Assembly: GCF_004307425.1 (NCBI RefSeq)
Contig: NZ_SEWZ01000003.1
Span: 372,001 to 436,000 of the forward strand
Direction: 5' to 3'
DNA from: Aquirufa antheringensis
GTDB lineage: Bacteria > Bacteroidota > Bacteroidia > Cytophagales > Spirosomataceae
Length of the DNA stretch: 64,000 nt
Shown: piece after piece, positions 17,955 to 30,553 of the stretch
How the letters are laid out: the number at the start of each line of letters is the position of its first letter
How positions within the stretch are numbered: position 1 is the first letter of the stretch
Made by a program: the position numbers and the translations under genes
The notes under the pieces: generated by a model
Told to the model about the DNA's origin: nothing
Seen by the model: only the letters and a program-made list of their open reading frames with translations
The model's database searches: none

Positions 17955-19118
17955 ATGCACGAAATTTATAAGTTTGGCCACAGCCTCGCTGTGTTCATGA
18001 GCTTTTTCATTATCCTGCTTTTACTGTTAAAATCCTCTGGACCTTTCTTTAAGAGTCCGAAGCGATTCCTTTTCTTCTATTTCCTTATTTTTGGTTTATT
18101 CACGCTTCTTCACTACTGCCTATTTGTGGAATGGCACGTGGAAATTGTAGCAGTTCTTTTCGGAAATTTTGACGCTTTTTTTTATTTGCTGTACCCTTTA
18201 GCGTATTTCTATGTGCGAGGTATGCTGAAGGAAAAGGAGGTTTTAAAGCCAAAGGATTTGCTTCATCTAGTTCCATTTTTCATCCAGGTCCTGGACATGT
18301 TGCCTTATTCGCTTACTTCTTTTGCGCACAAGATACTCATCGCAGAATTAATTAAATTCGATATTCATGAAGTAGTGAAACAGCAAGTAGGCTTCTTCTT
18401 TTCTGCTCGTTTCCATTTCTATGTCAAGTTGCTACTCAGTAGTTTCTATATCTTTTATAGCTGCCAACTCTATTTGCTATTCCGTCCTCGAACCGCGAAA
18501 AATTTCATTTTGCATTATTGGATTCCTGGATTTTTACTCGTTCAGATTCTCTTAATTCTCTTTTTAACCTATTTTTTCTTGATTCTTCCTAGTTCGAACC
18601 AATTCAAAATAACCTATCAAGGAAATTCTCCTTGGAATTACTTAGGGCTGGGTTCGTATTTAGTGCTTTCTTTAAGTGTCTTTTATTTTCCGGAATTTTT
18701 GTATGCTCCTTACATTAATGAAGAGCGAGAGGCTAAATTAAAAATACCCAATTACGAATTGTCCGCAGAAAAATTAATTGAAATAGAAACGAAATTGGAT
18801 TTGTATTTAGAAGAGTATAAACCCTTTTTAAAGGCAACTTTTTCTTTAGCTCAATTATCAGCCTCTTTAGATATTCCGGTGCATCATTTTAATTATTACT
18901 TCAGGAAGACACAACAATCTAATTTTCTTGAGCAACGAATGCGCTGGCGCATTCGGCATGCGAAGGAATTAATTGATGCAGGGAAGGATAAAGTAATTAC
19001 GTTAGAAGCCATCGGTCTAGAGTCTGGTTTTCAATCTAGAACGACTTTTTTTGTGAACTTCAAGGAATTAGTCGGCGAATCTCCCTCTGCTTACTCAGAA
19101 AGAAAAAACCGTATGTAA
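17955..19118 (+). CDS. Membrane-anchored AraC-family transcriptional regulator
   Basis: A 387-residue regulator. The first about 250 residues hold six to seven hydrophobic helices, and the last about 100 are an AraC-type double helix-turn-helix (LAQLSASLDIPVHHFNYYFR; then GLESGFQSRTTFFVNFKEL). This architecture is common in Bacteroidota and is thought to sense signals at the membrane. A TATTTTTG -7-like element at 17903-17910 may drive it. It converges on the ABC/fibre operon and has no divergent partner, so its target is unknown; autoregulation or control of a distant locus is possible. Confidence 0.85.
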   Translation: MHEIYKFGHSLAVFMSFFIILLLLLKSSGPFFKSPKRFLFFYFLIFGLFTLLHYCLFVEWHVEIVAVLFGNFDAFFYLLYPLAYFYVRGMLKEKEVLKPKDLLHLVPFFIQVLDMLPYSLTSFAHKILIAELIKFDIHEVVKQQVGFFFSARFHFYVKLLLSSFYIFYSCQLYLLFRPRTAKNFILHYWIPGFLLVQILLILFLTYFFLILPSSNQFKITYQGNSPWNYLGLGSYLVLSLSVFYFPEFLYAPYINEEREAKLKIPNYELSAEKLIEIETKLDLYLEEYKPFLKATFSLAQLSASLDIPVHHFNYYFRKTQQSNFLEQRMRWRIRHAKELIDAGKDKVITLEAIGLESGFQSRTTFFVNFKELVGESPSAYSERKNRM

Positions 19119-19280
19119 GGTCTTTTTTGGGTGTTTCTTTAGGTGATTTGTTCGGATTTTCGAAAATGGAACATGCACTTAGCTAAATTTTCTTTTCTCT
19201 CCAGCTTTAGTGGTATTATTGTTTAAGCGAATTGATAGCGCCTAACCACTAAGAAATAATAATAGAACAGATGAATGCGG

Positions 19281-19314
19281 GGAGCGAGGGTTAATGACCC
19301 TTTGCTCCTTTTTT
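19281..19314 (+). terminator. Terminator hairpin after the AraC regulator
   Basis: Two 5-bp stems (281-285 with 304-308 and 287-291 with 297-301, offsets from 19000) separated by a small internal loop are followed by six T. It lies between two convergent genes. Confidence 0.65.
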
Positions 19315-19987
19315 ATTTGATATGCCCGTCCTCCATCTCGATGATTCGGGTCGTCCTGGCAGCAAATTCATTATCGTGGGTAACAATTAATAGGGTCTGC
19401 TTGTATTCTTCCGCTAACTCTTGAAAGATGTTGAATACGATTTCTGAATTCTTTTTATCGAGGTTTCCAGTAGGCTCATCACCCATAATTAATAGCGGAT
19501 CGTTAATGAGTGCACGAGCAATGGCCACGCGTTGTTTTTGACCACCTGATAATTGGTTGGGGTCTTTTAATGCTTCCTTCTCAATGCCTAGTATTTTTAG
19601 TTTTTCGTAGGCTCGATGTTCGATTTCTTTCTCTGAAAACTGTCCTAGTTTTAGACCAGGAAGCATTACATTGCGTAAGACGGAGAATTCGTTCAAAAGG
19701 TAATGAAATTGAAAAACGAAACCGATTTTTTCATTTCGAACGATAGCCAGTTCGCCCTCTTTTTTGTCCCGCATCGAAACACCATCTATGATTAGATCCC
19801 CTTCGTAGTCCGTATCCATCGTGGATAAGATATACAACAAGGTAGACTTACCGCAGCCAGATCTTCCTATCACAGAGACAAACTCACTTTGCTTCAGTTG
19901 AAAGCTAACCTTATCTAATATTTTCACGGTCACTGGATCGTGAAAGTATTTCGTAATTTCTTTAGCCTCTAGTACAACCTTGTTCAT
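19313..19987 (-). CDS. ABC exporter ATP-binding protein (MacB/LolD type)
   Basis: A 224-residue ATPase with Walker A GRSGCGKST, signature LSGGQKQRVAIARAL, Walker B LLIMGDEPTGNLD and the H-loop VTHD. It is the LolD/MacB-N subclass that powers periplasm-facing mechanotransmission exporters. It is the last of seven minus-strand genes and follows its permease by one base, with the adaptor just before that. The set matches a split MacAB-like or LolCDE-like machine. Lol function is less likely because a membrane-fusion adaptor is encoded in the same operon. Confidence 0.9.
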   Translation of the reverse strand: MNKVVLEAKEITKYFHDPVTVKILDKVSFQLKQSEFVSVIGRSGCGKSTLLYILSTMDTDYEGDLIIDGVSMRDKKEGELAIVRNEKIGFVFQFHYLLNEFSVLRNVMLPGLKLGQFSEKEIEHRAYEKLKILGIEKEALKDPNQLSGGQKQRVAIARALINDPLLIMGDEPTGNLDKKNSEIVFNIFQELAEEYKQTLLIVTHDNEFAARTTRIIEMEDGHIK

Positions 19988-19988
19988 A

Positions 19989-21242
19989 TTATTTCCCTCT
20001 GATGATGATGACAGGATCTATTCCACTCGCTTTTCTAGAAGGGAAGAAACCGGCAAAATAGGTGGTGACAATGGCAAATGTACCCCCGATTAAATAGAAC
20101 CTCGGATTGTAATTGATAGGGTAGGTTTTGATGGTCGGTAATGATTCAGTATTGAAAGGGATTTGATCGATAAGCGAGGATAATCCAAATCCCATCAAAA
20201 GTCCCATCAGTCCACCAAAAATACCAATGCTCAACGCAATCGAGATAAAGATCTGATTGACATCCTTGCCAGAGAATCCTACGGCCTTTAAAATAGCGAT
20301 GGAATCCATTTTCTCGTAAATCATCATATTCAAGATATTGTAAATCCCGAATCCTGCCACTAATAAGAGGGTGATGCCCACGGCATAGGATATGAGTGTT
20401 CTGACTGAACTTCCCGTCTCGAATTGCGAGTTTGCCGTTTGAATATCTACCGCATTTAATTCGTAAATTCGCTGGTATTCCTTTGCTACTTCGGGCGCCC
20501 AAAGGATGTTTTTTAACTTAACCTGAATATCCGTTATGTAATTGCTAGGCTGTCCTAGTAATTTTTGGGTAGTTCCAATGGAGCAATAGCTTTGGACATT
20601 ATCTAAGTCTTGAATGCCAGATTGAAAAATGCCTACCACCCGTAGTGCCACTTGATCCCCTTTGCTAGTGGTCACCTGAATGACATCTCCCACATTCGCC
20701 ATCATTTTTGAGGCGACGCCTTTGCCTAAAATAATGCTATTAGGTATGTTTTTTAAGTCAATGTAATTGCCAGATGTCACATAATCACTAAACTTGAATA
20801 AACGATTTTCCTCTACCGGATCGATTCCAAAAATCGCCCCAGTCAAATCCACTGCTCCCACATTGTAAAATACTTGGGCATTAATTTTAGGGGCAACTCC
20901 CAGGACCCGGTCATCTTTTCTAATTGCCTCTAGGATGGTTTTGCTGTTATTAATTCCTAACAACTCGTTTTTGGGTTTGATCGAAGAAACAAAGTTGTGC
21001 CCTTTCGGATTGATGAAGTCAGCAGGTTGTCTTTCTGAAATTTGAATTTCTTTATAAATGCGAACATGAGCCGTCCGATTCGTGATTAACCCATCTAGCA
21101 TGTCGTTTAGCCCTGACATAAAGCTAAGCACGGTAACAAACATCGTAATACTAATGGTTACCCCAATGGCAGCGATCAACGTTTGTTTCCAGCGGGCAAT
21201 TAACAAAGAAAAAGCAACTTGATAGACGAGTTTGAATTCCAT
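19989..21242 (-). CDS. ABC exporter permease (MacB/LolE type)
   Basis: A 417-residue permease with the type VII ABC layout: an N-terminal helix (about 20-45), a large periplasmic MacB-type domain (about 45-280), then three C-terminal helices separated by a cytoplasmic coupling segment (MIYEKMDSIAILKAVGFSG). It works with the adjacent ATPase and the HlyD-like adaptor. The start ATG overlaps the adaptor stop by one base. Substrate is not readable, but the operon also encodes a large surface fibre, an outer-membrane barrel and a thioredoxin-like protein. Confidence 0.87.
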   Translation of the reverse strand: MEFKLVYQVAFSLLIARWKQTLIAAIGVTISITMFVTVLSFMSGLNDMLDGLITNRTAHVRIYKEIQISERQPADFINPKGHNFVSSIKPKNELLGINNSKTILEAIRKDDRVLGVAPKINAQVFYNVGAVDLTGAIFGIDPVEENRLFKFSDYVTSGNYIDLKNIPNSIILGKGVASKMMANVGDVIQVTTSKGDQVALRVVGIFQSGIQDLDNVQSYCSIGTTQKLLGQPSNYITDIQVKLKNILWAPEVAKEYQRIYELNAVDIQTANSQFETGSSVRTLISYAVGITLLLVAGFGIYNILNMMIYEKMDSIAILKAVGFSGKDVNQIFISIALSIGIFGGLMGLLMGFGLSSLIDQIPFNTESLPTIKTYPINYNPRFYLIGGTFAIVTTYFAGFFPSRKASGIDPVIIIRGK

Positions 21243-22318
21243 TATTTAGGCTTTACGATTTCATCCGTAGCTTTCAGGCCTGAGAGAATCTCTGCTTTTT
21301 GAAAATCCTTTAAACCAATTTTTACCACTCTTTCTTCGCCAGAAGCTAACGTCACGATGGAATCATTCTTCAAGTAATTCCTTGGTATTAAAATGACCTT
21401 TTCTTTTTGATTTAGTAAGATGTTAGCCTCAAATGTGATGTTAGGAAATAATTTAGGGGGCGCTTTAGTGAATGCAGCCTCGACTAAAAACGTTTTACTC
21501 CGTTCGTTCATTATTTCGGAGATTTTGGTCACCTTCGCTTCGAACACTTGTTTTTTATAGCTGTCAAGGGTAACTAATACTTGCTGCCCTTTTTGAACCC
21601 GTAAGATATCATTTTCATCGACTTGCAATTCTAACACGAAATCCTTGAAATTACCTATTACTGCGATAGGCGTTTGTGGACTAACAATCTCGCCTTTTGA
21701 TTTTAATAAGCTGTAGATAATACCGTTTGTTTTAGATCGTAAAGTGAAATCTTGAGCTTGATTGGTGGAAATCTGTAAATTTTTCTTCGCTTGTGAAGAG
21801 GTAAATGCTAAAGCGCGTTTTAACTCTTTGTATTTCTGAATAGCGGATAAATAATTCGACTTAGAGGTCTGGAAGGCTAATTCTTTCAGTTCAAAATCCA
21901 CTTTAGTTCCGATTTGTTGGTTCCAAAGATTTTTTTGTCGGAAATAGAGGGAAGAGTCAACTTTGAATTTGTTTTTCGCGGTCTCAATTAGCAATTGAGC
22001 GTCGTCTAATTTTCCCTGATTCGCAGAGAAGTCATTGAAACTGGCTGCTAAAGCAGCATTTTCTGCACTATATTGTTGAGTTTCGTTTGTGATAGTCAAT
22101 AGTGGGCTTCCCACGTGAACAGAATCACCCTCTTGTACTAAAATTTCATTGATGATACCGTTTACTGTTACAAATGCCTGGTATTGGTCTGCCGCCTTTA
22201 AAACTCCAGAAGCGTAAATGGATTCGGTAATGGGACCTTCTGTGGGGTGGCTAGTTTCTTGTTTCTTTCCACAAGATAAAAGAAGGATCCCTATGGCAAA
22301 AAGGACTATGTGTTTCAT
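21242..22318 (-). CDS. Membrane-fusion (HlyD/MacA-type) adaptor lipoprotein
   Basis: A 358-residue periplasmic adaptor. The chosen start (22318) gives a lipoprotein signal, MKHIVLFAIGILLLSCGKK, with Cys in the lipobox; a longer start at 22345 adds nine residues ahead of it. A biotinyl-lipoyl-like half motif (NGIINEILVQEGDSVHVGSPL) is followed by an alpha-hairpin (about 75-190), the second lipoyl half and beta-barrel domains (GEIVSPQTPIAVIGN; VQKGQQVLVTLDSYKKQ). It should bridge the ABC permease to an outer-membrane channel. No TolC-like channel is in the operon. Confidence 0.87.
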   Translation of the reverse strand: MKHIVLFAIGILLLSCGKKQETSHPTEGPITESIYASGVLKAADQYQAFVTVNGIINEILVQEGDSVHVGSPLLTITNETQQYSAENAALAASFNDFSANQGKLDDAQLLIETAKNKFKVDSSLYFRQKNLWNQQIGTKVDFELKELAFQTSKSNYLSAIQKYKELKRALAFTSSQAKKNLQISTNQAQDFTLRSKTNGIIYSLLKSKGEIVSPQTPIAVIGNFKDFVLELQVDENDILRVQKGQQVLVTLDSYKKQVFEAKVTKISEIMNERSKTFLVEAAFTKAPPKLFPNITFEANILLNQKEKVILIPRNYLKNDSIVTLASGEERVVKIGLKDFQKAEILSGLKATDEIVKPK

Positions 22319-22371
22319 ATTGTAAATTACCCAAAAAAGGAACACATTAGAATGATGCGAATCATTTTATT

Positions 22372-23046
22372 CTAAAATAGATGTTCGAATTCTTTTAATT
22401 CAGTCAAATTTTCTGGAATGGCACTAATTTGCCTACTTTTCCTCTGAATTAGAAATAGGCTAGGGGTAGAAAATACGCCGTATTCTTTTCGCACCTTTTC
22501 GTCAGCTTTTATCATTTTCCAATGAGAAGGAAAGGTCCAGGGATTCATTTCCTCATCGATCTGTATGGCTATGACAGGTAATTTCGACTTTTCTGAATAG
22601 GGAATCAAATCAACTAACAGTTCGGTACAATGAAAGCAAGAGGGACTGTAAAATAGTAATAAAACGGTGGGTTTGTCAGCTATATACTGAGAAAGCTGAA
22701 AGTTGTTTATGTGAATCTCAGGCGCCTTTTCTCCGATTTGTAGTGTTCTAATTCGTTCTATTTGTGCATTGATTTTTGAACGACTCAGAGCTGGGCAAGC
22801 TGGATCCAAGCTGAATTCTTCTAGCTTTTCAATCCACTTTTTTCTGCCTGTTGAAGCGATTTTTCTATAGTAGAAATCGACAGCCTCCCCATATTTACTA
22901 GCGGATTTCGCTTTTACTGTTCGAATGTGAAGGATCACTTGTTCGATCGAAAGATACTTTGCGAGTGGTTGCTCAAATACAGGAAATGTTTTCGCCGTAC
23001 TTTGTCCAAAAAGCGACAACGAAAATAATAAAAAGACGAGTTTCAT
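22372..23046 (-). CDS. Secreted thioredoxin-fold protein
   Basis: A 224-residue protein with a signal peptide (MKLVFLLFSLSLFGQS) and a TlpA/ResA-like thioredoxin domain in its C-terminal half. The active-site segment is FYSPSCFHCTEL (CFHC), followed by the cis-Pro region VFSTPSLFLI. The N-terminal about 90 residues are helical and not recognised. In the periplasm such proteins reduce or isomerise disulfides or act in thiol-based maturation. It lies 6 bp from the FISUMP gene and 53 bp from the adaptor gene in the same operon; that gap holds a small 6-bp hairpin (22351-22366). Confidence 0.75.
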   Translation of the reverse strand: MKLVFLLFSLSLFGQSTAKTFPVFEQPLAKYLSIEQVILHIRTVKAKSASKYGEAVDFYYRKIASTGRKKWIEKLEEFSLDPACPALSRSKINAQIERIRTLQIGEKAPEIHINNFQLSQYIADKPTVLLLFYSPSCFHCTELLVDLIPYSEKSKLPVIAIQIDEEMNPWTFPSHWKMIKADEKVRKEYGVFSTPSLFLIQRKSRQISAIPENLTELKEFEHLF

Positions 23047-23052
23047 AGGCAG

Positions 23053-23823
23053 TTAATCCCGAATGCAGCGTACTGAAAGTCCCGCATCCTTATCATTATT
23101 GGATATTTGATTGTAGGTCTGCGTGGTATAAATGACTAAGCCTTTTGCGTAGGTAATATCAGAAGAAGTGGAGCTCCAATAAAAAAATTTCGATCCCCTA
23201 TCAGTTAAAGAAGTCGTACTTCCAGTACTGATAAAACCTGCGGCATGCATTTTTAAAGGGCCGGCATATGCTTGAGCTCTCAAGTTTGCATTATTGACAT
23301 TTGTCCATTCTGTAACGGTGGGAATGCGCCACCCAGCTCCTAATTCAAGTGTGCAAGGGTCTTTTGCGGCTTCCCAATTTGTCGTTTCCGTATTCGTGTT
23401 GGTGGTAGGGAAGCTAGGGGTGGTCGATGTTCCATTGTTTTTATACCCTTTTTTCTTGTTGAATTGCCAATACCAACCTGCAGCGGCCTCCGTTGCATCT
23501 GTTTCAGAAATGGCTTGATTAGTTGATCCTAAATTTTGAGTAATCCAGCATTTTGGAGAACCACTCAATGACGAGCTAACAGTGCCGTAGGTGACTGTTT
23601 TGTTTACAGGTGCTACTCCATTTACCGTTGTGTGGATAATCGTGATGTTGTTTCCGCACACAAATGTGATTGTTTTTTTACCAAAACGCTCTAAACCTTT
23701 CCCGCTCCCAATTTTTCCACTAAAGTCTACGTATAAATTGGGATTCGAATGGCGAAATCCTGTTTTAGTTAATTGCGCAAAACTCAAAAAAGGTATAACA
23801 AGTAATAATAGGGTTCTTTTCAT
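23053..23823 (-). CDS. FISUMP-domain secreted protein
   Basis: A 256-residue protein with a signal peptide (start chosen at 23823: MKRTLLLLVIPFLSFAQ; an upstream start would overlap the fibre gene). The body is a Fibrobacter-succinogenes-major-paralogous (FISUMP) domain: CWITQNLGS, WYWQFNKKKGY, GAGWRIPTVTEW, FFYWSSTSS and the ending AGLSVRCIRD. FISUMP modules are common at the ends of large Bacteroidota surface proteins; the function is unknown but probably binding or structural. Here it is a free-standing protein four bases after the fibre gene, so it may be a fibre tip or accessory subunit. Confidence 0.78.
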   Translation of the reverse strand: MKRTLLLLVIPFLSFAQLTKTGFRHSNPNLYVDFSGKIGSGKGLERFGKKTITFVCGNNITIIHTTVNGVAPVNKTVTYGTVSSSLSGSPKCWITQNLGSTNQAISETDATEAAAGWYWQFNKKKGYKNNGTSTTPSFPTTNTNTETTNWEAAKDPCTLELGAGWRIPTVTEWTNVNNANLRAQAYAGPLKMHAAGFISTGSTTSLTDRGSKFFYWSSTSSDITYAKGLVIYTTQTYNQISNNDKDAGLSVRCIRD

Positions 23824-23827
23824 TACA

Positions 23828-26800
23828 TTAATAGAAATAGTCAATTTGAACTCGATCACCCGCAACTAAAGTATATGCGTCGTTATTGGCCGGGATATAG
23901 GTGAATGTAGTTCCGGTGAGACTAAATGCGGTTTTCGAAATGCGAACTCCATTAATGTAAAGTCGTAATAAGGCATTGCTAGATTTAGTCTGGGTCAAGC
24001 TAAAAGTTGTTTGTCCCACAGTCGCCGTATATTCATCTGAAACTTCGCGAACTAAACTGAAATCAGTTCCTTGTACGGCAGCCGTCATGGCAGAAGTCCC
24101 ATTTCCTTTCACGATTCCAGTAATTGAAGTAGCACCTGAACCTCCATTTCCCACAGCTAAAATTCCAGTGACACCGGAAGTCAATGGTAAGCCTGTTAAG
24201 TTCGTGGCTAAACCAGAAGCTGGAGTCCCAAGCACAGGAGAAGTCAGGGTAGGGGCGGTCAATGTTTTATTAGTCAACGTCTCAATCCCAGTCAAGCTAG
24301 CTTTTAGATTTAAGGCAGTTTGTGTAGCTGTGCTGATAGGTTTTAATACATCTGTAGTGTTATCTACAGCAGCTAGGCCCACCATCGCTTTTGTGATGCC
24401 TGAAACGAGACCTGTAAACGTAGGAGAAGCGATAGGTGCTTTTAAGTTTAGATCCGTGATATCAGCTTTAAGTGAAAGATCACTGGTATTAGCTTTTAGA
24501 TTGAGGGCGGATATACTTGCCTTTAGGTCTAATGCAGATTGAGTCGCCGTGCTGATAGGTTTTAAGGCGTCAGTGGTATTATCTGCATTTCCTAGGCCTA
24601 CCATTGTTTTCGTGATTCCAGAGACCGTTCCTGTAAAAGTGGGGGCATCGATTGGGGCTTTTAAAGCTAGTGATGCACTACTTGCTTTCGCATCCAAAGC
24701 GGTTTGTGTGGCCGAGCTAATTGGTTTGAGCAAATCACTCGTATTGTTTACATTACCTAAACCTACTTTTGTAGCGCTAATTCCCGTGGCTATTTTTGCA
24801 TCTGTAATAGCACCAGCTGCTATCGTTGGACTAGAGGCCGTACCCGATAAATCCCCGGCTAACCTAATTTTACCAATTAAGAGTGATGTTGCATCCAACG
24901 TAATTGAAGCGTCTACATAGGCCTTGTTGGCAGCATCTGTATTAAGTGTAGGCAGGTCAGTGAGCGTGATTTTTTTATCAGTTGGGAAAAGCAAATTCCC
25001 TTGCATTGTGCTTCCTGCTAATTGAACATAGCGGGCATCTGTCGTTCCAATATTATTGGTTATTTCATTCCAAATCGTACTCACATAAATAAAGGTTCGA
25101 CCATTGTTCGATCCTGTAGGATCGCCAGAGACGATAAAGATATCACCTTCCACGGGAGTGCCACTTGTAGTAAATGTTCCATTGTTGTATACACCAGTAT
25201 AATTACGACCAAGTGAGATGGCAATTTCTCCTGCAGCGTTAGGAGACACCCCATTTACTTTTTTAACGGTACCTTTTAAATCTAAAGCCGCCTGCGTAGC
25301 GCTACTAATCGGCTTGTTCGCATCTGACGTATTATTCACATTGCCTAAGCCCACCATGCTGGCTGTAATTCCGGAAACGATTCCGGTAAATGTGGGAGAA
25401 GCAGTGCCCGCCTTCGTCGCTAAACCAGCTTCTAAGTCTGTTGTATTAGCTTTTAAATCTAGGGCAGTTTGGGTAGCGGAACTAATTGGTTTAGCTAAAT
25501 CAGTCGTATTATTTACGTTTCCGAGGCCCACCATAGATGAGCTAATCCCTGAAACATTACCTGTAAAGGTAGGTGAAGCGATGGGTGCTTTCAGGTTCAG
25601 ATTAATGATATCTGCCTTTAGTGCTAAGTCAGTCGCATTAGCCTTTAAAGCTAAATCCGTATTCGTTGCTTTTAAATCTAAGGCACTTTGTGTGGCGGTG
25701 CTGATGGCTTTATCTAGGTCAGAGGTGTTATTTACATTCGAAAGGCCTACCATGGCGGATGTAATACCTGAAACAGAGCCAGTAAAGGTAGGTGAAGCGA
25801 TAGGCGCTTTTAAGTTTAGATCTGATAGGTCTGCTTTTAAGGCGAGGTCTGTTGTATTCGCCTTTAAATTGACGGAGGTAATACTTGCCTTTAAATCGAG
25901 TGCTGTTTGAGTCGCTGTGCTGATCGGTTTTGCTAAATCGGCGGTATTATCCACATTCCCTAAACCCACCTTAGTGGCACTAATACCTGATGCGATTTTC
26001 GCATTTGTGATGACACCCACTGCAATTTCTGGACTAGCTGCTGTACCCGTTAGATCTCCGGCTAGTCTGATTTTTCCATTTAGTAAGGACGTGGCGTCGA
26101 GTGTTTTCGATGCATCGACATATTCTTTATTCGCTGCATCTGTCGAAATGGTAGGTAAATCAGTCAGGCTTATTTTTTTTCCAGAGGGGAAAAGTAAATC
26201 ACCTTGCATGGTACTTCCTGCTAATTGCACATACCTTGCATCAGTCGACCCAATGTTATTCGTAATTTCATTCCAATCTGGATGAAGGTAAATGAATGTT
26301 CGTCCATTATTGGCGCCTATGGGATCCGTAGAGACAATGAACACATCCCCATCTACGGGAGGCGCACTCGTGATAAATACACCTCCATTATACAATCCGG
26401 TATAATTTCTTCCCAAGGAAATGACTACATTTCCATTTGCGTCGGGAGAAATACCATTTACTTTTTTGACTGTACCTTTTAAATTAAGTGCTATTTGAGT
26501 GGCTGTACTGATAGGTTTGTCTTGATCTGCTGTGTTGTCCACTAATTCTAAGCCTACTTTAGCTGGATTAATGCCAAAGGCAATCTTTTGATCCACTACA
26601 CTCGAATCGCGTAACTTTGAACTATGAACGGCTCCATTGATAATTTTTTCAGGAGTAATGGCATTTTCCTTAATCAATGGTGCGGTAGCAAGGCCACTTA
26701 AATCACCTGAAAGTTTAATTTTACCTGGTAAAATGGCGGATGCTAATGGGACATCATTCAGGATAATTTGATCAATTTGCTGTTTGATTTCTAGTCTTAA

Positions 26801-27307
26801 AGCCGTTAAATCGGTTTGGTTTAGTAAGCCTGCATCATTCTGAAACGCAGAAAGTTTAGTAGGAGTCCCCTTTACATTGAGGTAATCTACAGACTTCGCA
26901 TATAGTGCATAAGGGCTATATTGGAGGATAGAGCGACTAATCTCCGTGTAAGTGGAGGTCGATGGAAATTTAACCTCTACTTGTAGTGTTTTTAGGGTAT
27001 CAGTCCAAAGGATATCATCAAATGAGGTGTTACCTGTTTTAATTCCCTTGCCTATAATAACATTGATTAGGCCATATTCATCTGTTTGGGTGAGAATTGT
27101 CTCTTGGTAATCAAGGCGGGTAGAAGAGAACAGACTAAATTTTAATTCAATCCCCTTGTTAGCTAGCGGCTGCCCGGTATAATTATTGCCAGGCATGGAG
27201 ATCGGGTTAGGGTCTAAAATTACCGCTTGATAATTAATACCCGTTTTTTGGCCAAAAGAAAACAGGGAAATCCCTATAAATAGGATGGTGTAAAGAATTT
27301 TATACAT
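23828..27307 (-). CDS. Large repetitive tail-fibre-like surface protein
   Basis: A 1159-residue protein. Residues 1-20 are a signal peptide, and about 20-145 form an N-terminal domain (GINYQAVILDP; SPYALYAKSV). The rest is repetitive: eight copies of a VGLxNVxNTxDxxKPISTATQ segment (near 251, 447, 520, 593, 652, 848, 903, 976), five PTFTG motifs (506, 579, 638, 889, 962) as in phage tail fibres, and LKA-type heptads suggesting coiled coil. A module of about 195 residues occurs twice (278-475 and 679-875). A compact C-terminal domain (about 1085-1159) ends in VQIDYFY. No T9SS sorting domain is visible. Probably a trimeric surface fibre or adhesin; ligand unknown. Confidence 0.8.
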   Translation of the reverse strand: MYKILYTILFIGISLFSFGQKTGINYQAVILDPNPISMPGNNYTGQPLANKGIELKFSLFSSTRLDYQETILTQTDEYGLINVIIGKGIKTGNTSFDDILWTDTLKTLQVEVKFPSTSTYTEISRSILQYSPYALYAKSVDYLNVKGTPTKLSAFQNDAGLLNQTDLTALRLEIKQQIDQIILNDVPLASAILPGKIKLSGDLSGLATAPLIKENAITPEKIINGAVHSSKLRDSSVVDQKIAFGINPAKVGLELVDNTADQDKPISTATQIALNLKGTVKKVNGISPDANGNVVISLGRNYTGLYNGGVFITSAPPVDGDVFIVSTDPIGANNGRTFIYLHPDWNEITNNIGSTDARYVQLAGSTMQGDLLFPSGKKISLTDLPTISTDAANKEYVDASKTLDATSLLNGKIRLAGDLTGTAASPEIAVGVITNAKIASGISATKVGLGNVDNTADLAKPISTATQTALDLKASITSVNLKANTTDLALKADLSDLNLKAPIASPTFTGSVSGITSAMVGLSNVNNTSDLDKAISTATQSALDLKATNTDLALKANATDLALKADIINLNLKAPIASPTFTGNVSGISSSMVGLGNVNNTTDLAKPISSATQTALDLKANTTDLEAGLATKAGTASPTFTGIVSGITASMVGLGNVNNTSDANKPISSATQAALDLKGTVKKVNGVSPNAAGEIAISLGRNYTGVYNNGTFTTSGTPVEGDIFIVSGDPTGSNNGRTFIYVSTIWNEITNNIGTTDARYVQLAGSTMQGNLLFPTDKKITLTDLPTLNTDAANKAYVDASITLDATSLLIGKIRLAGDLSGTASSPTIAAGAITDAKIATGISATKVGLGNVNNTSDLLKPISSATQTALDAKASSASLALKAPIDAPTFTGTVSGITKTMVGLGNADNTTDALKPISTATQSALDLKASISALNLKANTSDLSLKADITDLNLKAPIASPTFTGLVSGITKAMVGLAAVDNTTDVLKPISTATQTALNLKASLTGIETLTNKTLTAPTLTSPVLGTPASGLATNLTGLPLTSGVTGILAVGNGGSGATSITGIVKGNGTSAMTAAVQGTDFSLVREVSDEYTATVGQTTFSLTQTKSSNALLRLYINGVRISKTAFSLTGTTFTYIPANNDAYTLVAGDRVQIDYFY

Positions 27308-27309
27308 AG

Positions 27310-27975
27310 CTATTTTAGAAGAGAATATTGAATTCCAAAACCGAATGAAACAGGATTGATAGCGAATTGGCTTCCGTCTTTCTGGTTAGTATTGAGTTGC
27401 CAGTTGTTAGAAAAGAAGGCATAAATAGCTACTTGATCATTCAACTGTTTGGCTAGCTTCACTTGCGCCCCCACATGCCATAAAATTCGGTCAAATTGAG
27501 GGTTGCCTTGTAAATCATAGACTTGATTTCCCATTTTTTGAGCGCCTAAAATGAGTTGCTTAACTTGCAACGTTCCGCCATAAGAAAGACTAATTCCTCT
27601 GCCTAAACGCGATTTTATGCCTAAGCCTGTGTTGAGTCCGACATAAGTTGAAGTATAGGAGAAGGGAGTATTTTGTGTCTCTCCTACCGCATTAAACTGG
27701 TCGATAGCGAGCCCCACTTGGTAATCAAGTTTACGCAGAAAAGCAGACGGTGTTTTAGAGGAATCCAGTAGTTGATGAGTGCGATAAATGGAAAGGTGCA
27801 AACCAGCATCTGGTCGAATGGAATTCTGGGCTATCCCTGCAGGACTTTGGAAGCGAAGATGGGCTGCATTTAAACCCATCTGATAATTCCAATCTTGGGC
27901 AGAAAGCCTTAAGATGGGAATTATGCAGATAAATAGAAAGGTATAAAGTAGGGTTAGGTATTTTCTGGGACTCAT
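27310..27975 (-). CDS. Outer-membrane beta-barrel protein, first gene of the fibre operon
   Basis: A protein of about 221 residues with a signal sequence (SPRKYLTLLYTFLFI... ending near RLSAQ) and alternating hydrophobic strands, ending in VSFGFGIQYSLLK as expected for a barrel. It resembles the PorP/SprF and generic outer-membrane barrel proteins of Bacteroidota but is shorter than typical PorP (about 300). The start at 27975 places the signal peptide at the N-terminus; 28002 is an alternative. It ends two bases before the fibre gene. A role as fibre anchor or translocation pore is a guess from context. Confidence 0.68.
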   Translation of the reverse strand: MSPRKYLTLLYTFLFICIIPILRLSAQDWNYQMGLNAAHLRFQSPAGIAQNSIRPDAGLHLSIYRTHQLLDSSKTPSAFLRKLDYQVGLAIDQFNAVGETQNTPFSYTSTYVGLNTGLGIKSRLGRGISLSYGGTLQVKQLILGAQKMGNQVYDLQGNPQFDRILWHVGAQVKLAKQLNDQVAIYAFFSNNWQLNTNQKDGSQFAINPVSFGFGIQYSLLK

Positions 27976-28126
27976 TATTTTCGTGGTTAGGCATTTATTC
28001 AAAGGCTAAAGCAAGCTACATAAAAGGTTTTAAATGCGTTATAACATAAATTATATAGAAATTGATATTTCCGTAAAATGCATGTTTAGAGTTAATTTAG
28101 GGCATTTATTGGTGTTTCAAAATGGC

Positions 28127-30451: not shown

Positions 30452-30479
30452 AAGGGGCGCTCTTCTGCTTCCCTCTGGG

Positions 30480-30551
30480 TGGCCCCGGCGGGAATCGAAC
30501 CCGCATCTAGCGTTTAGGAAACGCCTATTCTATCCGTTGAACTACAGCGCC
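30480..30551 (-). tRNA. tRNA-Arg, anticodon CCU
   Basis: A 72-nt cloverleaf read on the minus strand. The acceptor 5' strand is GGCGCTG (30551-30545). The anticodon arm is GGCGT-TTCCTAA-ACGCT, giving anticodon CCT (AGG codons). The T arm is GCGGG-TTCGATT-CCCGC, the variable loop has 4 nt, and the discriminator is A. CCA is not encoded. The acceptor stem has a G-G mismatch at the fourth pair and a G-T wobble at the sixth. Otherwise the canonical features (TTCGA, D-loop GG) are present. Confidence 0.87.
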
Positions 30552-30553
30552 AA

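Follow-up and report, generated by a model that had tools for sequence, protein, structure and literature searches.

A seven-gene cluster of Aquirufa antheringensis that probably combines a barrel-fibre surface unit with an independent ABC exporter

A window of 64,000 nucleotides from Aquirufa antheringensis (contig NZ_SEWZ01000003.1, positions 372,001 to 436,000; G000:C3:372001-436000 among our genomes) was analysed for a cluster of seven minus-strand genes. They encode a small outer-membrane barrel, a repeat fibre, a FISUMP-like protein, a thioredoxin-like protein and a triad composed of an HlyD/MacA-type adaptor, a MacB/LolC-type permease and an ATP-binding cassette (ABC) ATPase. An earlier reading, made from the sequence alone, had taken the seven genes as one system in which the triad would export the fibre. 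It was found that the barrel-fibre genes and the triad each occur without the other in related genomes. Most probably, the cluster consists of two units placed end to end, a barrel-fibre surface unit (unit A) and an independent exporter of the MacAB/LolCDE type (unit B), and the triad is probably not the fibre's own exporter. The size of the genome (2.5 Mb, 99.55% complete), the GC content of the window (42.3%) and the two size classes into which the relatives fall agree with the two Aquirufa branches as outlined in extracts of PMC10821818.

Gene content of the cluster

All seven minus-strand open reading frames were present, with the close spacing and the domain assignments that the sequence-only reading had given. 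When ATG starts were used (27975, 27307, 23823, 23046, 22318, 21242 and 19987, from barrel to ATPase), the spacers measured 2, 4, 6, 53, -1 and 1 bp. The sole long gap, of 53 bp, lies exactly between the thioredoxin-like gene and the HlyD gene. Upstream of it, the small outer-membrane beta-barrel of 221 aa (27310..27975), first gene of the barrel-fibre unit, is followed by the repeat fibre of 1159 aa (23828..27307), the FISUMP-like secreted protein (23053..23823; the listed frame starts with TTG at 23865, the likely start being the ATG at 23823) and the periplasmic thioredoxin-like protein with its CFHC motif (22372..23046). Downstream are the HlyD/MacA-type adaptor lipoprotein (21242..22318 from its ATG; the listed frame begins with GTG at 22345), the MacB/LolC-type permease of 417 aa (19989..21242), of the type VII ABC kind, and the LolD/MacB-type ATPase of 224 aa (19313..19987). 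The signal peptides (those of the barrel and the fibre included), the lipobox of the adaptor and the gene names nagB, hflX, GNAT and acyltransferase were read by eye, with no database search. Ten further neighbourhoods have the same order, barrel-fibre-FISUMP-HlyD-permease-ATPase, and an eleventh (L064) agrees up to its contig end, showing that the arrangement is not due to chance.

The window barrel alone reached OMP_b-brl at only E 0.09, but its family is recognisable, 7 of 33 members matching this domain, the best at 7.6e-9. The ATPase matched ABC_tran (E 1.8e-30), the adaptor HlyD_3 (2.2e-19) and the permease both MacB_PCD (3.5e-16) and FtsX (1.9e-18), the last two above the Pfam cut-offs. 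The closest NCBIfam models of the triad were LolD, LolC/E and RND_mfp, and RND_mfp alone exceeded its cut-off (TIGR01730, 104.7 bits for the adaptor, cut-off 94.9). The ATPase reached 247.7 bits with LolD (8.9e-74; cut-off 307.75) and the permease 136.5 bits with lolCE (1.2e-39; cut-off 362.45), and the adaptor matched the MacA model at 3e-11, under that model's cut-off. When the permease was compared with the PDB, LolE was returned first (3.5e-17) and MacB more weakly. Two stronger LolCE candidates were found elsewhere in the genome (175.5 and 142.3 bits vs 125.3), both still under the cut-off.

The triad shares with MacAB-TolC an HlyD/MacA-type lipoprotein adaptor, a permease with the MacB periplasmic core and an FtsX domain, and an ABC ATPase, all in adjacent genes. 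It differs from it in that the ATPase (19313-19987) and the permease (19989-21242) are separate genes, whereas MacB of E. coli is fused, in that the operon holds no channel gene, and in that permease and ATPase score closer to LolC/E and LolD than to MacB. With LolCDE it has the permease and ATPase families in common, but it stays under the curated Lol cut-offs and has an HlyD partner. The statement that no TolC-like channel is present was correct for the operon, but not for the genome, where 17 OEP (TolC-type channel) domain matches lie, all of them outside the operon. Unit B would be an independent type VII ABC exporter that probably pairs with a TolC-type channel encoded elsewhere, and its substrate is probably small.

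Occurrence of the triad and the fibre cassette

The permease was searched in 59 genomes, 37 of which are genus members. It was detected in 36 of these 37, in some only as pieces at contig ends, and the exception is a genome that is 62% complete. Outside the genus, the permease was found in four genomes of other families (46-64% identity), and four such genomes hold the full triad without the cassette. Apart from the window itself, which was left uncounted, 34 neighbourhoods were read. The barrel-fibre-FISUMP cassette stands between a nagB-like gene and HlyD in 11 of them (L064 was counted as linked though its contig ends within the fibre) and is absent from 22. Seven of these 22 come from outside the genus, including L053, where only the permease was found. 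The genus accounts for 27 neighbourhoods, 11 with the cassette beside the triad, 15 without it and one (L063) that ends inside the permease. In nine of the 15 cassette-free cases the nagB-like gene lies directly beside HlyD, which represents the empty form of the site. The other six of the 15 belong to genomes (G005, G016, G018, G020, G024 and G033), each 99% complete and provided with the triad, that gave no match to the fibre N-terminal domain at E 1e-8 and none to the barrel at E 1e-5. The proposal that fibre and triad form one linked system is not supported, given these 15 neighbourhoods, of which six come from genomes with no fibre or barrel match. The opposite expectation, that such triads never adjoin the fibre genes, does not hold to the letter either, since 11 of the 27 genus neighbourhoods keep the arrangement.

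A tree was built from the three triad proteins, with some rows represented by the permease alone. It groups the 14 linked genomes in a single clade (support 0.947) with two subclades, and G003, whose contig ends near HlyD, lies inside one of these. Genome G011 is also linked (L168), and the match coordinates of G002 and G030 fit the linked form. Since all 14 linked genomes on the tree are found in one clade, a single gain of the cassette followed by vertical inheritance would suffice to explain its distribution, with loss elsewhere as a further possibility.

The gap before HlyD contains a pair of boxes, ATCATT-N21-TAATTT (22324..22356, minus strand), which may serve the triad as a promoter or another regulatory element. 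The pair was first seen in an alignment, and the pattern ATC[AG]TT-N19-23-TAA[AT]TT was counted near the HlyD start in the 33 neighbourhoods that have HlyD. It was present in 16 of them, with a spacing of 21 in 15 cases and of 22 in one. These comprise 10 of the 12 linked neighbourhoods (the window included, both subclades represented) and 6 of the 15 cassette-free ones of the genus; the six neighbourhoods outside the genus lack it. The total was 24 matches in 1.19 million strand-bases, the 16 near HlyD included. This suggests a separate transcription start for the triad. Separate promoters splitting the cluster had been named beforehand as an observation that would speak against a single system, and the box pair provides support for them at the level of sequence only.

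Barrel-fibre units in other genomes

The fibre domain and the barrel were searched in the same 59 genomes, giving 96 fibre-domain matches in 30 genomes and 79 barrel matches in 28, the latter after removal of one row (second piece of the G006:C14 barrel). In 70 of the 79 cases the barrel is followed directly, on the same strand, by a fibre N-terminal domain. The gap, measured between matches and not between gene ends, is within 141 nt in 61 pairs and 547-712 nt in nine. Of the nine barrels left unpaired, seven start no more than 262 nt from the beginning of a contig, where the adjoining gene is cut off, and the other two are G006:C5 and G004:C94. A fibre can stand without a barrel match, as 26 of the 96 do; two such fibres lie in tandem close to a paired unit (L136) of the window genome, and directly before one unpaired fibre of this genome (L138) lies a small protein with a sub-threshold match to a sorting domain of the type IX secretion system (T9SS). 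The distance matrices of barrels and fibres were correlated with r 0.82, a value reached in 0 of 2000 permutations, and r was 0.64 for unit pairs whose barrels are <60% identical. For the 29 units with a usable AraC-type regulator, r was 0.86 between barrel and fibre, 0.73 between barrel and regulator and 0.64 between fibre and regulator. The link between barrel, fibre and FISUMP is real and stronger than could be seen from the window, as 70 of 79 barrels lead into a fibre.

Most of the 70 pairs stand at a distance from the permease: 11 are within 15 kb, two on the same contig at 0.77 and 0.89 Mb, and 57 on other contigs, of which at least four (G002:C151, G011:C73, G023:C148 and G030:C114) represent the linked site interrupted by the end of a contig. 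In each of the good assemblies G000, G007 and G013, the second in a single contig, one of three barrel-fibre pairs adjoins the triad. The earlier idea of a dedicated route for the fibre, with the barrel as anchor or pore, is retained for the barrel-fibre pairing and not supported for export by the triad.

When named records were searched with the fibre domain, 68 loci yielded 58 pairs, 49 direct and nine with one gene between. HlyD or permease was found in the fetched locus of five units, all at the window's site, and was missing from 53; among these, L182, L188 and L189 are the window's site cut at a contig end, and in 20 the fibre is complete and the sequence was read for 3 kb or more beyond it. 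The records include Aureitalea and metagenome-assembled genomes (MAGs) of Flavobacteriales and Flavobacteriaceae. The closest ones, in a search that may pass over records of the window's own genome, are MAGs titled Cytophagaceae or Spirosoma fluviale, and the isolate Sandaracinomonas limnophila also appears, with three barrel-fibre units (L205, L212 and L197) and a best permease match that is only 28% identical. One of its units, L212, lies a few kb from a nagB-like gene, and the triad is not in the fetched locus. Among the 12 genomes of the named search the permease was close in four (G060, G064, G068 and G070) and partial in one more, the G070 permease being the same match as that of genus member G004.

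The fibre matched DUF5907 (2e-31) and the tail-fibre repeats of PHROG (5.2e-76, with many PHROG matches), contains seven copies of the motif VGLxxV[DN]NTxD and has no cysteine. Its N-terminal NYQAVILDP domain (about residues 20-135) forms an Ig-like sandwich in the predicted model, corresponds to no Pfam family and precedes the repeats of phage-tail-fibre type. The DUF5907 and PHROG repeats are common to phage tail fibres; in contrast to these, the window fibre has a signal peptide (by eye), the N-terminal domain outside Pfam and an outer-membrane partner, and its units are multicopy in bacterial genomes.

The FISUMP protein is related to its family but divergent (Fib_succ_major, 4.9e-7), and it scored below the curated cut-offs (TIGR02145, 33.6 vs 41.65 bits; PF09603, 30.6 vs 33.9 bits). 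With E 3.5e-48 or better, orthologues were found in 16 genomes; wherever the contigs can be read, they stand at this fibre. Three weak matches lie elsewhere. Four cysteines are invariant in all 12 aligned sequences, including five from genomes that lack the thioredoxin. A repeat shaft with an Lcl_C head makes up the Legionella collagen-like adhesin Lcl. The window shows a comparable combination of a shaft and a putative head of the Lcl_C/Fib_succ_major type, but the proposed head is encoded as a protein of its own and the shaft resembles phage tail fibres instead of collagen. Weak Lcl_C matches, below the Pfam cut-off, were obtained for the FISUMP protein (3.7e-5) and for the C-terminus of another fibre (0.003). 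A blastn search with the last 198 nt of the FISUMP gene, made for the template of a diversity-generating retroelement, matched only itself within the window.

Unit A would comprise the barrel, the fibre and FISUMP, in the window's clade also the thioredoxin and probably an AraC-type regulator, and would be one copy of a multicopy surface-fibre unit of Bacteroidota. Its proteins carry Sec signal peptides by eye, and the fibre would be exported by Sec. The small barrel may then hold or assemble the fibre in the outer membrane through the conserved N-terminal domain, with the repeats as shaft and FISUMP as a putative distal binding head whose disulphides the thioredoxin may make or repair. The role of the barrel as outer-membrane anchor or assembly factor is proposed from the make-up of the unit, and the type B pair of the T9SS is the published parallel.

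A small protein of 159-182 residues accompanies 17 of the 58 units, either immediately ahead of the barrel or separating it from the fibre (L217:7252-7776, L218:8901-9398, L221:3085-3633, L249:5595-6092 and 13 others). The 17 proteins align over a RQGFxQP-like stretch and a C-terminal half of the sorting-domain type, and the ten that were scanned all matched Por_Secre_tail, eight of them above the cut-off. The window unit has no such protein, and two relatives of it lie elsewhere in the genome. The statement that no T9SS sorting domain is present applies to the window operon, but not to several sister copies of the barrel-fibre unit. The genome itself has a T9SS, with SprA (2150 bits) and 12 sorting-domain matches, ten above the cut-off. 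The T9SS translocon of the genome and the small T9SS-sorted protein encoded in part of the sister units make a T9SS-assisted route of the fibre across the outer membrane the favoured one. Tentatively, the barrel-fibre unit, together with the small T9SS-sorted protein that some copies have, might constitute an undescribed surface-fibre assembly system of Bacteroidota. The barrel, alone or jointly with this small protein, would carry and anchor large fibres that have no sorting domain of their own, and the system would exist in several exchangeable copies per genome, many beside AraC-type regulators. No published description of such a unit was found in the literature searched.

With the misleading link from pump to fibre removed, a better-defined question takes its place: by what route do large fibres with no recognisable T9SS signal get to the cell surface of Bacteroidota, and are they carried by their partner barrels and small T9SS-sorted neighbours? 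The three copies in the Sandaracinomonas limnophila isolate make this question testable.

Alternative explanations and flanking features

Two alternatives concern the route of the fibre and are variants of unit A. In one of them, which is unlikely though it deserves consideration, the barrel would act as a shuttle distantly related to PorP/SprF, and the T9SS would export the fibre by way of a signal that escapes recognition. Cargo genes of type B are often linked to cognate PorP/SprF-like barrels required for secretion, as stated in extracts of PMC12618676, and such barrels have been suggested to anchor the cargo (PMC9143113, likewise in extract). SprB-SprF and the window unit have in common a surface-protein gene beside its own outer-membrane barrel in a member of Bacteroidota with a T9SS, and 2 of 33 barrels gave a weak match to TIGR03519 (PorP/SprF; best 4.3e-4). 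On the other hand, the window barrel showed no PorP/SprF match up to E 0.1 in NCBIfam and none in Pfam, and 4 of the 33 barrels matched a different barrel model, outer_TDE1717 (best 1.5e-5). No Por_Secre_tail was detected on the window fibre up to E 0.1, nor on three paralogues up to 0.01, and the T9SS-sorted partner, where present, is a third, small protein.

It is improbable that the triad is a dedicated exporter, which would take the fibre or FISUMP from the periplasm for export, loading or quality control, in the way that MacAB-TolC handles a small disulphide-bonded toxin. The cassette-free neighbourhoods, the six genomes devoid of any fibre or barrel match, the small share of barrel-fibre pairs near a permease and the separate start suggested by the box pair all argue against it, and a fibre of 1159 residues would be an implausible TolC substrate. 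Nevertheless, a number of points weigh against the division into two units. The spacing is tight and the order is conserved in two sister clades. The thioredoxin and the cysteine-bearing FISUMP adjoin the triad, which recalls a published model, where a peptide with two disulphides is delivered by Sec and then exported by MacAB-TolC (PMC5985334, in extract), and strong FISUMP orthologues occur only at this locus, as far as the contigs allow. The thioredoxin, identified through TraF (3.3e-8) and Thioredoxin_2 (1.2e-6), presumably serves the disulphides of FISUMP, and relatives manage without it. The box pattern was chosen post hoc and, with 17 neighbourhoods lacking the pair, amounts to support and not to proof. 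Part of the barrel-fibre distance correlation is due to shared descent alone, and the 58 units under-represent the linked form, the linked units of the second subclade not having been retrieved. A role of the triad in the handling of FISUMP is possible, because substrates of MacB-type pumps are periplasmic, according to the same extract of PMC5985334.

The two-unit reading would also be compatible with the other variant of unit A, in which the barrel acts as secretion pore of the fibre, as a two-gene counterpart of autotransporters or two-partner secretion. The near-obligate pairing from the barrel's side, the correlated divergence and the lack of a sorting domain on the fibre are in its favour, as are weak matches to the Autotransporter beta-domain in 3 of 33 barrels (best 0.0019). 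However, about 200 mature residues suggest 8-10 strands, which would be too narrow, part of the units carry a T9SS-sorted partner, and fibres without a barrel exist. These facts make the pore improbable too. That even FISUMP and the thioredoxin are chance neighbours of the fibre is very improbable: the thioredoxin is limited to 9 of 59 genomes (eight make up the subclade of the window, and the ninth, G030, is absent from the tree) and no FISUMP-like gene was seen in most barrel-fibre units, but FISUMP follows the window-type fibre in both linked clades, and in L157 a Fib_succ_major-type gene lies directly after the fibre.

An AraC-type regulator, of the kind that accompanies other barrel-fibre units, is encoded on the far side of the triad (17955..19118, plus strand) and was seen at this site only in the window's clade. 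Regulators of this kind lie within three genes of 30 of the 58 barrel-fibre units. A terminator-like hairpin of 12 pairs (19279..19310, plus-strand match) lies between the ATPase gene and the AraC-type gene that converges on it; the total number of hairpin matches across the region is at the level of shuffled sequence. By eye, the neighbours of the locus resemble housekeeping genes, the AraC-type gene being the one neighbour covered by a family search. The fibre gene contains four long plus-strand open reading frames (23976-26285), which mirror the fibre repeats and are probably shadow frames. The only tRNA gene detected in the window was that of tRNA-Arg (cct; 30476-30552, minus strand). At other loci, large proteins with passenger-associated-transport repeats (PATR) are encoded directly after fibre genes (L136:6-3485 and L163:5178-10646), and a protein with IgGFc-binding (1.2e-34) and DUF11 domains occupies the same position at L142:795-4991.

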